A stretch of DNA of 64,000 nt, from contig NZ_JALNTY010000001.1 in NCBI RefSeq assembly GCF_023161965.1, positions 850,501-914,500 of the forward strand. The letters are read 5' to 3'. Position numbers and translations under genes: made by a program. This DNA comes from Anaerosoma tenue. GTDB lineage: Bacteria; Actinomycetota; Coriobacteriia; Anaerosomatales; Anaerosomataceae. The notes under the pieces are model-generated. The model saw only the letters and a program-made list of their open reading frames with translations, searched no databases and was not told the origin of the DNA. Within the stretch, counting starts at the first letter, position 1; each line of letters begins with the position of its first letter. Below, one piece after another: positions 39,765 through 58,199 of the stretch.

Positions 39765-41186
39765 TCACGCTGTCGGACCGTCACTACCCGAAGATGGCCG
39801 CCGCCACACGATATCGGCCACGCGGCGCGTCTCCGGCGTCACCCGGCACTGGTCGGCCGGCCGCACGCCCGCCAACCACACGATCTCTCCTGCGCTTCTC
39901 ACCACCGGCGTCGCCTGCCGCAGGCGCCTCGGCACCTTGGCATCCACCAGGATGTCCGAGACCTTCTTCGTACCCCACATGCCGAGCGGACGCATGCGAT
40001 CACCTTCAAGCGGCACGTCGACCACAAGCGGCCAGACGACCGCATCGGCGTCGATGGACACCTGGTCGGGCCCGGTGACGTGCGCACCCGCCTCACCTTG
40101 TGTGCATTCCAGCGTGCCCGCCGGGCCCAGATCGAGCCTGTCCGGACAGTGGAGCAAGCCCGGTACCAGAACGGGGACATCGGAGTCCTTGCGAGAAATT
40201 CTAAGTGTATCGTACTCGACCTCCGCCCGCAGACCGAACGGCAGATCGCGGGCGAAGCCCGGATCGCCGATTCCGTCCACCAGGGCCTCTGAGTGCTCGA
40301 ACTCCAGACGTGATGCTTCCGGGAAGGCCGCGAGCACCGCCGCCCGCACGGTGCGTCGCGCCATCGGCCGCGAGAGCGTCTGCACGGGCGCGCGGTCGAT
40401 CACCAGCACGCCATGTTCGACCCGGGTGAAGTCACGGGCGAACGCGTCGGCCATCTCGGCCAGGAGCGCATCCTCATCGGCAAGCACGGTCATCGTCCGC
40501 AGGGCCGAGCGGGCGAACCCCGGATCGCGCTCTTCGATCACCGGAAGCAGCTCGTGCCGGACCCACGAACGCTCACGGCTCGTATCGGCGTTCGTGGCGT
40601 CCTCGCGCCACTCCTGGCCGAGCGATGCGAGGTATCCGGTCACGTCGGTCCGGCGTGCATCGATGAGCGGACGAACCACGCGCCCGCGAACCGGGGCGAT
40701 AGAGCTCAGGCCGCCCTTCCCCGCCCCCGACACGAGGCGGGCGAGGAAGGTCTCGATCCGGTCGTCCGCGGTGTGCGCCACCGCGATCCGTCCGGCCGTG
40801 CGCGGCGCGCCGAAGGCGTCGCAACGCGCGTCGAGCTCGCTCTCTGCGAACCGGTAGCGGATGCGCCGCCCGGCGTCCTCGAGATTGAGCCCCTCGGCGT
40901 CGGCGTATCCACTAACATCGTGGCGCACCACCGTGCACTCCACGCCCAGCCGCGCGCACAGCTCGCGCACCCAGGCCTCATCGGCGTCGGACTCCGATCC
41001 ACGGAGGCCGTGGTTCACGTGCAGCACCGACAACGCCGCGACCTGCCGGAGCTCGCCTGCGGCGAGGAGCCGTAGCAGCGCGACCGAGTCGGCTCCCCCG
41101 CTCACCATGGCCAGCACGACGCAGCCGTCGTCGAACATCTCGTGACGGTCGACGCTGGCGCGGGCGATATCGGTGATCGTCGTCAT
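39765..41186 (-). CDS. tilS: tRNA(Ile)-lysidine synthase
   Basis: TilS ATP-dependently modifies the wobble C34 of tRNA-Ile(CAU) to lysidine, changing it to read AUA. The 473-residue protein has the PP-loop VSGGADSVALL (residues ~29-39), NHGLRGSESDADE, the VAHTADDRIETFL motif and an extended C-terminal domain with the small TilS_C segment (GMWGTKKVSDILVDAKVPRRLR). ATG 41186 is used, since a long N-terminal extension of the frame into the fdh leader is not TilS-like. Confidence 0.94.
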   Translation of the reverse strand: MTTITDIARASVDRHEMFDDGCVVLAMVSGGADSVALLRLLAAGELRQVAALSVLHVNHGLRGSESDADEAWVRELCARLGVECTVVRHDVSGYADAEGLNLEDAGRRIRYRFAESELDARCDAFGAPRTAGRIAVAHTADDRIETFLARLVSGAGKGGLSSIAPVRGRVVRPLIDARRTDVTGYLASLGQEWREDATNADTSRERSWVRHELLPVIEERDPGFARSALRTMTVLADEDALLAEMADAFARDFTRVEHGVLVIDRAPVQTLSRPMARRTVRAAVLAAFPEASRLEFEHSEALVDGIGDPGFARDLPFGLRAEVEYDTLRISRKDSDVPVLVPGLLHCPDRLDLGPAGTLECTQGEAGAHVTGPDQVSIDADAVVWPLVVDVPLEGDRMRPLGMWGTKKVSDILVDAKVPRRLRQATPVVRSAGEIVWLAGVRPADQCRVTPETRRVADIVWRRPSSGSDGPTA

Positions 41187-41377
41187 AGGACCAGGGTAGA
41201 GTGCCAGGACGATAAGCGCCACAGTCGCGCGGGACGCGCCGCACGATGACCAGTCACCGGGCAGGATTCGTAAGCTCGGATAATGATGCATAAGATGTGG
41301 CACTGTACGAATATTGAAGGGTTCACCGTATGTGGAACGAATAGCCCGGATTGGGGGCATTCTGTAGCGCAGACACT
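41187..41377. other. Intergenic region upstream of tilS and of the fdh promoter
   Basis: This stretch between the tilS start and the fdh promoter has no gene. It should hold the tilS-hpt-ftsH promoter on the minus strand, but I see no convincing hexamer pair there. It is more AT-rich than its surroundings around 41280-41340. Confidence 0.5.
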
Positions 41378-41407
41378 TTGCAACTTCTGTTACACATGTG
41401 ATACGCT
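41378..41407 (+). promoter_or_regulatory. Promoter of the formate dehydrogenase operon leader
   Basis: TTGCAA (41378-41383) and TACGCT (41402-41407) are separated by 18 bases, with a TG before the -10 (TGATACGCT, extended -10). Transcription would start near 41413-41416. That gives a ~320-base untranslated leader before fdhG. Confidence 0.5.
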
Positions 41408-41413
41408 CTGCGC

Positions 41414-41535
41414 CTGGTAAGGGGGTAGCGTGAGAGTCGGCATACTCTGCGCATCGAACAGGACAGTGCACGACGAGCGTCACGGTCGCGCCGCATAGGC
41501 GGCTGCCCGTGGCGTTTTTTTGTCGTGCACTGTCC
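41414..41535 (+). ncRNA. Structured leader RNA with intrinsic terminator inside a 14-base inverted repeat
   Basis: After the promoter comes a small hairpin (AGAGT/ACTCT, 41433-41448). A GC-rich hairpin (41478-41485 pairing 41507-41514, with an inner GCCGC/GCGGC stem) then ends in seven T's (41515-41521), a textbook plus-strand intrinsic terminator. A perfect 14-base repeat, GGACAGTGCACGAC (41461-41474) and its complement (41522-41535), encloses it; the 3' arm is made only if transcription passes the T-run. The leader precedes the selenocysteine formate dehydrogenase genes. It could be a riboswitch or attenuator, or a separate small RNA. I cannot match it to a known class. Confidence 0.5.
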
Positions 41536-41736
41536 GGCGGGCACCCGGCCGCCGCGTTCTCTCTTACCACGAGACCTTGTCATGACGGGGGTCTGCACGC
41601 AGACCCATGCAGCCCGGGGCCCAGGGGGGCCGTCCGGGAAGCGTGATGCGAGCGAGGAAGGAGGTGCAGCGAGAACGCTCCAACGTGGTTCGACACATTC
41701 GAATCCGATCACAGACGTGAAGTAGGGAGGGAAAGC
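41536..41736 (+). other. Remainder of the fdh leader
   Basis: The 3' part of the leader is untranslated as far as I can see. It holds a strong hairpin GGGTCTG-CACG-CAGACCC (41589-41606), a run of G/C-rich sequence (41610-41638) and the fdhG ribosome site AGGGAGGG just before the GTG at 41737. The hairpin may be part of an antiterminator or expression platform. No credible ORF is present. Confidence 0.4.
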
Positions 41737-44700
41737 GTGAACCTTTCGAGGCGAGGATTCTTCAAGCTCACCGGTGCGTCATTCGCCGCCGGTGCGCTGG
41801 CCGAGCTGTTCGGCCCCTCGAACGCGTTCGCTGCTGATGAGGTTCCGGAGATGCGTATCGCCGGGGCCACGGAGTCGACATCGATCTGCTGCTACTGCGG
41901 TGTCGGCTGCGGGATGGTCCTGTCCGTCAAGGATGGCGAGCTCATCAACCTTGAGGGCGACCCGGACCACCCCATCAACAGAGGCGCGTTGTGTTCAAAG
42001 GGCAATGCCCAGTTCAACATCCGCAACGTCTACGATCCCGAGACCGGTGAGCTCATGCTCAACCCGGCTCGCGTCACCAAGGTGAAGTACCGCGCACCTA
42101 AGGCGACCGAGTGGGAAGAGGTCGAGTGGGATTGGGCGATCACGGAGATCGCGAAGCGCGTCAAGGCGACCCGTGACGCGAACTACACCGCCGTCGATGA
42201 GAACGGCGTGACCGTCAACCGGTGCGAAGCCATCGGTAACCTCGGCGGCGCGGCGCTTGACGGCGAAGAGGGCTACGTGGTGCAGAAACTCGCGCGCGCG
42301 CTCGGCGTGACGTGGATCGAACACCAGGCCCGTATATGACACAGCGCCACGGTCCAAGGTTTGGGCCAATCATTCGGGCGCGGTGCCATGACGAACCACT
42401 GGGTGGACCTCAAGAACTCTGACGTCGTGATGGTCAACGGCAGTAACGCCGCAGAGAACCACCCGATCTCCATGAAGTGGGTGCAGGAAGCGAAGAACGC
42501 CGGTGGCAAGCTGATCGTGGTCGACCCGCGCTTCAGCAGGAGCGCCGCGGTCGCCGATCTCTATGCCCCGATCCGTACCGGCACCGACATCGCCTTCTAC
42601 GGCGGCTTCTTCAATTACATCATGGAGAACGGTCTGTACCACGAGGAGTACGTCAAGAACTACACGAACGCGTCCTACATCGTGAAGGAATCGTACTCGT
42701 TCGAAGACGGCCTCTTCTCGGGCTACGACGACTCCAAGCGCAAGTACGACGCCACCGCGTGGGCATACGAGGTGGACGAGGAAGCGCCATGGGACACGTC
42801 GGAGACAGGCGCGTACTCATGGGTCAACAAGCCGGGCACGCCGGCTTTCGCTCCGCCGGTCTACAAGAAGGCGAAGACCGACCCCACGCTCCAGGATCCG
42901 CGCTGCGTCTGGCAGCTCATGAAGAAGCACTTCTCCCGCTACACGCCGGAGCTCGTCTCTTCGATCACCGGTATGCCGCAGGACGTCATGCTCCAGGTGT
43001 GGGACCTCTATGGCAGCACCGGTCAGCCCGGCAAGGCCGGCACGATCATGTACGCGATGGGGCAGACGCAGCACACGTACGGCTCGCAGAACGTGCGCTC
43101 GATGGCGATCATGCAGCTCCTGCTCGGCAACATGGGTATCTGCGGCGGTGGCGTGAACGCGCTCCGTGGCGAGTCGAACGTTCAGGGTTCGACCGACATG
43201 GCGATGCTGTTCCACATCATCCCCGGCTACAACCCCACGCCGAAGGCTGCTGATCACCCCACGCTAGCCGCGTACTTCGAGAAGACCACGGTGCCCAACG
43301 GCTACTGGACCAACCGGCCCAAGTTCATCGTGAGCTACCTCAAGGAGCTCTACGGCGACTACGCCACGCTCGAGAACGACTACGCGTATGACATGATGCC
43401 CAAGCTCGACGGCACCAACCACAGCCATATCGCGATGTTCGAGCACATGGAAGCCGGCAAGATGGAGGGTCTGTTCCTCTGGGGTCAGAACCCGGCCGTT
43501 GGTGGCCCGAACTGCTCCCAGGAGCGCAGGGCCATGGAGAAGCTGAAGTGGATGGTTTCGATCGACCTCTGGGAGACCGAGACCGCCATCTTCTGGAGCG
43601 ACAAGGCCAACGTCGATCCCACCACGATCGACACCGAGGTCTTCATGCTCCCCGCCGCTTGCCACTACGAGAAGTCGGGCGAGGTCGCGAACTCGGGTCG
43701 CTGGATCCAGTGGCGCTACAAGGCCGTCGAGCCTCCCGGAGAGGCCAAGGACGACCTCGAGATCGCAACCGAGATCTACCTCAAGATCAAGGATCTCTAC
43801 GAGGCCGAGGGTGGCGCGAACCCCGAGCAGATCACCAAGCTCAACTGGGACTACCTGGACGCAGACGGTCACGCCGACGTCCGCAAGGTAGCCCGCGCGA
43901 TCAACGGCTACACCGTGGCGGACAACACGTTGGTGGCGAACTTCACCAAGCTCGGCGCCGACGGCACCACCGCATGTGGTAACTGGATCTACAGCGGCTA
44001 CTACAACAAGGAGGAGAGCTGGGAGGATCCGTCCACCCAGCCCACCGGTGCACGCGACAACACCGACAACCCGGGCGATGGCCTGGAGAAGCCGATCGGT
44101 TCGTATCTCGGCTGGTCGTTCGCGTGGCCTGTCAACCGCCGCATCATCTACAACCGCGCTTCAGCGGATCCCTCGGGCAAGCCCTACAACGAGGACAAGG
44201 TCATCGTTGCGTGGGATGGCGAGAAGTGGCTCCGCAACGACGTGCCCGACTTCGGCTGGAACAAGGTGCTGCCTGACGGCACCAACCAGGCGATCCCGCC
44301 CAACACCACCGCGTTCATGATGAACGCCGAGGGTGTCAGCCGGTTCTTCGCCTCGGGCAACGCCGATGGTCCCTTCCCGGAGCACTACGAGCCCTTCGAG
44401 TCCCCGGTGGAGAACCAGATGTCGAGCACGCAGTTCAACCCGGCCGCAGTGGTGGTCGAGTCGGCTGCGAAGACGCGCGGCACGTACGAGGACTTCCCGA
44501 TCGTCATGACCACCTTCCGTCTCACGGAGCACTGGCAGACCGGCGGTCTCACCCGCAACCTGCCGTGGCTCGTCGAGACCATGCCCAAGATGTTCGTCGA
44601 GCTCTCCAAGGAGCTCGCCGAGGAGAAGGGCATCGTCTCCGGCGATAACGTGGTCATCCAGAACAACCGCGGTGCGATCACGGCGTTCGCCATGGTCACC

Positions 44701-44892
44701 AACCGCATCAAGTCGCTCGACGTTGCGGGCAAGAAGATCCACCAGATCGCCGCTCCGTGGCACTGGGGCTACGGCTCCACCTGCTCCGTGGGTGGTATGG
44801 CCAACGACCTGACCCCGAACGTCGGTGATGCGAACACCTGGATCCCCGAGTACAAGTCGTTCCTGGTCGATATCCGGAAGCAGGAGGTGTGA
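41737..44892 (+). CDS. fdnG: Formate dehydrogenase catalytic subunit, Tat-exported selenoprotein
   Basis: The frame has one internal TGA (42337-42339, codon 201) that must be read as selenocysteine: it falls in the family's active-site motif R-I-U-H-S, where relatives have U or C. Including it, the protein is 1051 residues, as for FdnG/FdoG. It starts with a Tat signal (SRRGFFK), then CxxCxxxC plus a later Cys (about residues 49-90) for a [4Fe-4S] cluster, followed by the molybdopterin domains (SFGRGAMTNHW, GGVNALRGESNVQG, C-terminal HWGYG). It oxidises formate with a Mo or W bis-MGD cofactor outside the membrane. GTG 41737 has AGGGAGGG upstream. Without recoding it would look like two genes. 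Confidence 0.96.
42337..42381 (+). promoter_or_regulatory. Bacterial SECIS element of formate dehydrogenase
   Basis: Directly after the TGA, GCGCC (42344-42348) pairs with GGCGC (42377-42381). Inside, GGTCC (42351-42355) pairs with GGGCC (42363-42367) around the loop AAGGTTT. Distance to the TGA and the GGU-containing loop resemble the SelB-binding hairpin of E. coli fdhF. This supports selenocysteine insertion rather than termination. Confidence 0.75.
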
Positions 44893-44895
44893 TAA

Positions 44896-45720
44896 ATGGC
44901 TGAGACGGCAATCATGTACGACAGCTCCAAGTGCACCGCCTGCAAGGGTTGCCAGGTGGCGTGCAAGCAGTGGAACCAGCTTCCTTCTCCACTGTCGAGT
45001 GAGTTGTTCGAGTACACGGAGAGCTTCCAGGCTCCGAGAGACCTCGGTTCGAACACCTGGCTGATCATCAACTTCAGCGAGGAAGACAAAGAGATCGGGA
45101 TCGACTGGAACTTCATGCGCAACTCGTGCTTCCACTGCACGGATGCCGCGTGTGAGATGGCCTGCCCCGTGGGCGCCATCTCCCACAAGGACAACGGCGC
45201 GGTCGTGATCGATCAGGACAAGTGCATCGGATGTCGCTACTGCGTGGCGTCCTGCCCGTTCGATGTCCCGCGCTGGGACGAGGCCAAGAACAAGACCTTC
45301 AAGTGCTGGCAGTGCTTCGACCGCACCTCGGCCGGACGCGCGCCCGCATGCGTGAGCACCTGCCCCACCGACGCCCTGCAGTTCGGCGATCGTGCGGAGA
45401 TGCTCGGTCTGGCCAGGGAGCGTGTGAGCGAACTCAAGGCAGCTGGATTCGACAAGGCTGAGATCTACGGCGAGGACGAGCTCGGCGGCCTCCACACCAT
45501 CGTGGTGGCTCACCGGGGTCTCGAGGCCCACGGCCTCATCCGCGACCCGAAGATCGGTCTCACCGACTTCTGGCAGTTCCTTAAGCCGCTCGGCGCCATC
45601 GGCGCTGGCGCGACCGTTCTCGGTCTCGGCTTCTCGTACTTCATGGCACGCGACTACGATCGCGGCGAGTACTCGTACGATGAGGCGACCGACACCGTGT
45701 CCGTCAAGGAGGTGGAATAG
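44896..45720 (+). CDS. fdnH: Formate dehydrogenase iron-sulfur subunit
   Basis: This 274-residue FdnH-like subunit has four cysteine clusters for four [4Fe-4S] centres: CTACKGCQVAC, CFHCTDAACEMAC, CIGCRYCVASC and CWQCFDRTSAGRAPAC...C. One C-terminal membrane helix (about residues 223-245, FLKPLGAIGAGATVLGLGF) anchors it. It carries electrons from the catalytic subunit to the cytochrome b subunit. It starts 3 bases after fdnG and overlaps the next gene by 1 base. Confidence 0.95.
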   Translation: MAETAIMYDSSKCTACKGCQVACKQWNQLPSPLSSELFEYTESFQAPRDLGSNTWLIINFSEEDKEIGIDWNFMRNSCFHCTDAACEMACPVGAISHKDNGAVVIDQDKCIGCRYCVASCPFDVPRWDEAKNKTFKCWQCFDRTSAGRAPACVSTCPTDALQFGDRAEMLGLARERVSELKAAGFDKAEIYGEDELGGLHTIVVAHRGLEAHGLIRDPKIGLTDFWQFLKPLGAIGAGATVLGLGFSYFMARDYDRGEYSYDEATDTVSVKEVE

Positions 45721-46397
45721 TGAGGTACATCCAAAGGCATAGCGCGTTCGCACGCGGCCTTCACTGGATCCACACCATCGCCTGCTTGTCGCTGTTCGCG
45801 ACCGGACTGATCCTCTTCATTCCGTCCGTGGCGGCGGCCGTTGGCACGGCTACGGTCCAGGGCGCGCGCATGGTCCATCGCGTGATGGCTGTGATCTTCA
45901 TCGTGGCTCCGATCGTGTCCATGATCATCAGCCCCAAGGGCTTCGTCCACCTGTGGAACAGCCTGTTCTTCAAGTGGGATGCTGACGACAAGGAGTTCAT
46001 GAAGAAGTTCTTCCCGTACTTGCTCTTCGGCGCGAAGCAGCACATGCCGCCGCAGAAGATCAACAAGTCGGGTCAGGGTGCTGTCGACGGCGTGCTGATC
46101 TTCGCCTCCGTCTTCATCTCCCTCACCGGTGTGGTGCTGTGGTGGCCGGAGTTCTTCGGCGGCCCCACCAGCGGGCTGTTCCAGTGGAGCCTCGTGCTGC
46201 ACTCCGGCCTCATGATCCTCATCGGGGTCATCATGCTCGCGCACATCTACCTGGGCGCTGGCATCTTCCAGCCGTACAAGGGTTCCGGCAAGCTGATGTT
46301 CGGCAACGGTCGCGTGACCGAGTCGGATGCTCTGTACCACTGGGGCCACTGGGCCAAGGACGAGCTCAAGAAGGGCGACAATGTGATCGTGGAGTAA
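45720..46397 (+). CDS. fdnI: Formate dehydrogenase cytochrome b556 subunit
   Basis: The 225-residue protein has four membrane helices and the histidines expected for two b hemes (RGLHWIHT near residue 15, MVHRVMAV near 57, LVLHSGLM near 160 and MLAHIYLG near 173). FdnI passes electrons from formate to the quinone pool and can generate a proton-motive force. The GTG start overlaps the fdnH stop (TAGTG), so translation is coupled. It is the last gene before the terminator at 46425. Confidence 0.92.
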   Translation: MRYIQRHSAFARGLHWIHTIACLSLFATGLILFIPSVAAAVGTATVQGARMVHRVMAVIFIVAPIVSMIISPKGFVHLWNSLFFKWDADDKEFMKKFFPYLLFGAKQHMPPQKINKSGQGAVDGVLIFASVFISLTGVVLWWPEFFGGPTSGLFQWSLVLHSGLMILIGVIMLAHIYLGAGIFQPYKGSGKLMFGNGRVTESDALYHWGHWAKDELKKGDNVIVE

Positions 46398-58001: not shown

Positions 58002-58069
58002 GAGGTCTCGGTCTCGAAGCGCTGGCTCGAGCGCTGCGATCATGCCTCGTACCACGAAGGCCGCGTCGC

Positions 58070-58182
58070 ACGGTGTAGGCAGGTCTCCTGGCTCGAGGCT
58101 CGTTCGCCTCTCACAGTGGCGGGTCCGCGCCGGACTTGCACCGGCTTCCCTATTCTCCCGGTCTCCCGGGCACCTACGCCGT
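58070..58182 (-). ncRNA. Cobalamin riboswitch aptamer
   Basis: Minus-strand RNA shows the conserved B12 elements in order: AATAGGGAAGCCGGTGCAAG, then GCCACTG, then the B12 box AGGAGACCTGCC (58093-58077 region). The ends pair as a closing stem: ACGGCGTAGG (58182-58173) with CCTACACCGT (58079-58070), with one mismatch. It controls the following btuF-btuC-btuD-cobO operon, expected to shut it off when cobalamin is plentiful. Confidence 0.93.
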
Positions 58183-58199
58183 CTTCGGTTGTCCCGGCC

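Follow-up and report, generated by a model that had tools for sequence, protein, structure and literature searches.

A lineage-restricted mRNA leader with a covarying 5' hairpin and a predicted terminator precedes the formate dehydrogenase operon of Anaerosoma tenue

The 64,000-nucleotide stretch of Anaerosoma tenue DNA analyzed here (the window) carries a formate dehydrogenase operon on the forward strand. The operon comprises fdhA (41737-44892), encoding the catalytic subunit with a molybdopterin domain and an in-frame TGA read as selenocysteine, fdhB (44896-45720) for the Fe-S subunit (Fer4_11) and fdhC (45720-46397) for the cytochrome b subunit (Ni_hydr_CYTB). A separate fdhE-like gene is located farther downstream of fdhABC. 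The in-frame TGA lies at 42337-42339, where a SECIS_3 match below the gathering score was also found. Ahead of fdhABC we identified a leader of 320 nt, whose other neighbour is a divergent gene which, from its translation, we take to be tilS. Across the window, Rfam models matched at gathering score just once, at 58061-58192 on the reverse strand, where a cobalamin riboswitch (RF00174) was found with 88.3 bits.

A preliminary description of the locus had proposed a riboswitch or attenuator, based on a good promoter and a terminator with seven T's inside a perfect 14-base inverted repeat. The repeat and the terminator were recovered as described. The arms at 41461-41474 and 41522-41535 are 14 nt long and 100% complementary, and they form the sole inverted repeat of at least 12 nt in the region 41200-42000. 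They enclose a hairpin (H2, 41478-41514) followed by seven T's (T7, 41515-41521), which mark the predicted 3' end of an attenuated transcript. Folding of the RNA from 41455 to 41540 gave -57.9 kcal/mol compared to -33.4 +/- 3.3 kcal/mol for shuffled sequences (z -7.45), and none of 200 shuffles was as stable. The fold of the whole leader showed a z of -4.5, with 0 of 100 shuffles reaching its stability. The combination of a hairpin and a T-rich tail seen in the window was equalled by 1% of 200 shuffles (P 0.01). H2 escaped the automatic terminator scan, which accepts loops of 3-8 nt; what the scan reported was a weaker site at 41535-41554. The promoter claim held in part. A sigma-70 consensus scan of 41000-42200 found no promoter, whereas an extended -10 element (TGATACGCT, 41399-41407, TGNTAnnnT in the alignment) is located 12-13 nt upstream of a G-run in all nine leaders described below, which supports a transcription start near 41414. 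The sequence TTGCAA at 41378-41383 may serve as a weak -35. The terminator hairpin sits about 65 nt downstream of the predicted start, and H2 with T7 represents a predicted intrinsic terminator lying downstream of the promoter and ahead of the first gene, the arrangement expected of an attenuator. A genome-wide repeat or mobile element was ruled out, as the leader is present as a single copy in its own genome; the 14-mer of the inverted repeat was not enriched within the window.

In related genomes, a DNA search with the leader matched 7 of 61 genomes and a strict pattern search 4 of 27 genomes of the family. FdhA was present in 21 of 69 Anaerosomatales (Coriobacteriia) genomes at E 1e-30. The leader precedes the orthologous fdhA in nine of the 69, namely in the window's genome (G000), its near-identical relative G003 (97% identical over 441 nt), G001, G020, G016, G010, G008, G017 and G009. 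These genomes belong to five genera of one family and provide eight distinct leader sequences, which is a small set. All nine loci with an fdhA identity of at least 79% carry the leader. It was found before none of 12 more distant fdhA genes (55-74% identical), where the model of the 5' hairpin H1 scored at most 12 bits, and two of these 12 loci (L029 and L034) start too near fdhA to hold the leader. The H1 model R1, built from the nine leader sequences, gave nine matches with 56.6-64.7 bits across 396 genomes of the class, the next best reaching 22.7 bits. Since R1 was built from them, the nine leaders score high by construction, and the result lies in the gap to the rest. In a sample of 396 genomes of the phylum, only the window's own genome was found with R1 at E 1e-4. 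Moreover, a wider pattern scan of contigs yielded at least 119 stretches. Scoring the 80 listed with R1 gave one true match, L125 of Anaerosomatales bacterium Yes46-06, with 59.6 bits, while the next among the 80 matches listed had 17.8 bits. A search of the literature found no paper on this fdh leader.

The alignment of related fdh leaders suggested in the preliminary description revealed conservation among nine homologous leaders and covariation in H1. In this alignment (A1) the 5'-terminal GGUAAGGGGGU, termed P0, is conserved and is followed by H1 (41427-41451), a bulged hairpin with the layout CGNN-bulge-GAGAA-CCGGCA-UUCUC-NNCG which holds the leader start codon. The loop, (C/U)CGGCA, is nearly invariant as CCGGCA across the leaders. 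We found 93.1% of 72 cells of H1 to be paired, and two pairs show changes on both sides; the variable outer pairs are U-A, C-G, U-G and G-C, A-U, G-U, U-A. The covariation value of 0.246, compared to 0.156 for shuffled alignments, was reached by 7 of 500 shuffles. Taken by itself, the number of pairs changed on both sides (two) was matched in 155 of 500 shuffles. As GAGAA-N6-TTCTC lies about 15-35 nt downstream of the start, which is a usual place for repressor sites, H1 could also be regarded as an inverted repeat in the DNA, that is, as an operator overlapping the transcription start and read by a repressor. However, the outer pairs of H1 covary only if the one-nucleotide bulge is included: the bulge-free palindrome pairs just 56.9% of the cells, which speaks for an RNA structure and against a DNA palindrome. 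G-U pairs are present in addition, and an operator would leave the terminator and the long-range helix P1 described below unexplained. This explanation is disfavoured by the bulge-free pairing result, and we consider it very improbable.

A hairpin followed by at least five T's in nine nucleotides was detected at leader nt 99-119 in six of the nine leaders (G000, G003, G020, G008, G017 and G009). These six represent four genera, and each hairpin was significant against 200 shuffles (P <= 0.035). As the stems differ in sequence, it is the place and the type of the hairpin that are kept and not its letters. No terminator-like hairpin was found at this position in G016 (P 0.15), G001 and G010. Intrinsic termination is accordingly not universal, because these three leaders are without a convincing T-tract after H2, and in them Rho or translation could play a part. 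The perfect 14-nt repeat with T7 is confined to G000 and G003 and, judged from the nine sequences, is not the conserved part of the leader. Such a restriction is what one would expect of a mere strong hairpin or an insulating terminator without any regulatory role, but other genera have a similar hairpin in the corresponding position, and both H1 and P0 are conserved. Furthermore, tilS is divergent, so that no upstream gene on the plus strand ends at the leader. We regard a purely insulating function as scarcely credible.

A possible start codon (GTG, ATG or TTG) is found a few nucleotides 3' of the G-run in all nine leaders. In the window it opens a leader ORF of 22 codons running from GTG to TAG (41430-41498). 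The ORFs range from 22 to 88 codons and cross H1 in two reading frames (MRTGIL/MRVGIL or MREPAF), and a conserved leader peptide was rejected on this ground. In three leaders a 3-nt insertion before H1 is accompanied by a start codon two columns further upstream. The openness of the ORFs exceeded that of shuffles at P 0.029, which is weak evidence given eight non-independent sequences; here, as in the ensemble, duplex and strand-swap analyses of P1, G003 was excluded as near-identical to G000. The stop codon of the window's leader ORF is placed in the apical loop of H2, and H2 would be expected to be blocked by a ribosome positioned there. A second Shine-Dalgarno-like element, AAGGAGGTG, was seen in the alignment of related leaders and lies at 41658-41666, about 70 nt upstream of fdhA. 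It is without an obvious start codon, and similar elements occur in related leaders. The leader ORFs of G001, G016, G010 and G008 end 66-72 nt before fdhA, at or beside this element.

The 5' end of the transcript is also predicted to engage in a long-range helix, P1. Its 5' strand, UGGUAAGGGGG (41415-41425), is conserved in A1 and pairs in the ensemble; the AAGGGGGU portion of this strand also resembles a Shine-Dalgarno sequence of the leader ORF. The 3' strand, CUCUCUUACCA (41559-41569), lies downstream of the terminator and was located by the fold of G003, the duplex analysis and the ensemble. Pairing between the 5' G-run and leader nt 110-165 is seen in the predicted ensemble of eight of eight leaders, with probabilities of 0.57-1.0. 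In five of eight leaders the most favourable duplex formed by the 5' strand beat shuffled partners at P<0.05; this duplex is positioned elsewhere in G001, which belongs to the five, and in G010. P1 strands taken from the same leader reached -24.8 kcal/mol on average versus -22.7 kcal/mol for swapped strands (permutation p 0.017, uncorrected for kinship). The two strands are complementary in all leaders, with few compensatory changes. According to the predicted folds, H1 can lose its 5' arm to an extended P1. This displacement is almost complete in G016 and G008, where the ensemble probability of H1 is about 0.02, and partial in G020 (0.6) and G009 (about 0.4); in G001, G010 and G017 the H1 probability is near 1. 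Directly 3' of P1 lies H3, in which GAAGACG is invariant in the six leaders aligned. In G000, G003 and G001, no equivalent of H3 was evident by eye.

With regard to known regulatory RNAs, the leader matched no Rfam family. A scan of 41350-41760 against Rfam 15 gave a best score of 16.5 bits (E 1.7), compared to a gathering score of 42. For the Moco riboswitch family RF01055 (gathering score 36), no match was obtained in the nine leaders at E up to 5 or in the window's leader at E up to 10. The earlier remark that no Moco riboswitch core could be recognized was thus borne out at gathering as well as permissive thresholds. A SECIS model did not match the leader either, as it would in a SECIS-like leader of the selAB type, and SECIS_3 matched only in the region of the TGA/TGC codon. 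The Moco riboswitch, SECIS and any other Rfam family were rejected as the identity of the leader by these searches. The leader shares with the bacterial SECIS element (SECIS_3, RF01989) a hairpin within a selenoprotein mRNA; in contrast, the SECIS_3 match is intragenic, at the TGA codon, and the leader persists before enzymes with cysteine.

According to its published description, the Moco/tungsten cofactor riboswitch controls genes for Mo/W enzymes or transporters and may use a terminator (PMC2408646). Similar to our leader, RF01055 occurs in front of fdhA in related operons of the Anaerosomatales. Matches lie beside fdhA in seven sister loci outside the leader group, on the coding strand upstream of the fdh operon in L027, L031, L032 and L033 and on the opposite, divergent strand in L023, L024 and L025. 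In the leader genomes, however, RF01055 sits at other loci in eight of nine cases (the ninth genome, G003, is 70% complete), mostly before what we presume from translations to be ABC-type oxyanion transporter genes. Formate, Mo/W cofactor and selenium status had been named as natural signals. The case for a Mo/W signal is weakened because eight of the nine genomes already have RF01055 elsewhere. Selenium as a dedicated signal also lost ground: the orthologous FdhA codon is TGA in seven of nine genomes and TGC (cysteine) in G008 and G017, and a dedicated selenium switch is unlikely since two of nine enzymes use Cys in place of Sec. G017 and G009 share one genus, within which a Sec/Cys exchange is seen. 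That each genome has a single copy of the leader points to a signal specific to the fdh operon.

These comparisons also bear on a true riboswitch, in which P0 and H1, with P1 and H3, would bind a small molecule such as formate, a folate or redox cofactor, or Moco in a novel manner, and the ligand would set the balance between H1 and extended P1 and hence termination or ribosome access. Such a function could explain the near-invariant unpaired letters in the H1 loop, in P0 and in GAAGACG of H3 (six aligned leaders) as well as the competing structures and the placement before one metabolic operon. Moreover, four related fdh loci carry a same-strand Moco riboswitch, which the leader may thus have replaced. 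On the other hand, the leader occurs once per genome with no second operon, which is unusual for cofactor riboswitches, its conserved core is small, and Mo/W sensing is already served by RF01055 elsewhere in eight of nine genomes. We consider a true riboswitch unlikely. More doubtful still is the specific proposal of a new small riboswitch class of one Anaerosomatales lineage, with formate or a metabolite linked to it as the ligand, that has replaced the Moco riboswitch ahead of formate dehydrogenase.

Alternatively, termination could be set by an RNA-binding protein that recognizes H1, for example an antiterminator or a product of the operon. A bulged hairpin with a near-invariant loop at the extreme 5' end would suit such a protein, the single target in each genome is in keeping with a dedicated regulator, and a sequence of partial similarity (GGGGGUGACCGGCA in G016, AGGAGGUGACCGGCG in G020) is repeated at the second Shine-Dalgarno-like element. 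Nevertheless, no regulator was found, and a protein site appears improbable to about the same degree as a true riboswitch.

Taken as a sequence-based conclusion, the leader is a real cis-regulatory element absent from Rfam 15, and its role as a cis-regulatory leader acting by premature termination is well supported. Within the original alternative of riboswitch or attenuator, the homologues, the covariation in H1, the terminator-like hairpin of six of the nine leaders and the lack of an Rfam match favour an attenuator-type leader, whereas a small-molecule aptamer is a candidate only. Attenuation is the best-supported mode and ribosome coupling the preferred mechanism. In full, we propose a lineage-restricted cis-acting mRNA which controls fdhABC by premature termination coupled to ribosomes through the short ORF starting in H1, a model that we give an even chance of being correct.

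In the mechanism that we infer, including the direction of the response and its signal, transcription would start at about 41414 and H1 would fold first. H2 and T7 would then stop polymerases near 41515-41521. Escape would most likely require a ribosome to initiate at the GUG in H1 and to proceed into the 5' arm of H2, where its presence would prevent the terminator from folding. Similar mechanisms operate in the pyrBI and ampC leaders of E. coli, which are ribosome-coupled attenuators in which a ribosome on the leader prevents terminator folding. As in these systems, a leader start site lies shortly before an intrinsic terminator. In contrast to them, the start codon here is part of a covarying hairpin with a near-invariant loop, a distal strand can close off this codon, and the lengths and frames of the leader ORFs vary. 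After escape, the 3' strand of P1 would emerge, pair with the 5' end and could displace H1, by which the leader start site would be closed again. The level of readthrough would be set by whatever stabilises or opens H1 with its loop CCGGCA.

The same enzyme is thus preceded by a Moco riboswitch in related operons and by a different structured leader here, which offers an entry to the exchange of regulatory RNAs. In an order of subsurface bacteria, the leader also provides a candidate attenuator of compact size that may respond to formate, redox state or translation. A report on Anaerosomatales isolates describes formate as an electron donor for their growth (PMC9686372). Finally, G016 carries four Moco riboswitches in its genome, two of which are arranged in tandem about 260 nt apart (G016:C13:118030-118152 and 118416-118536).
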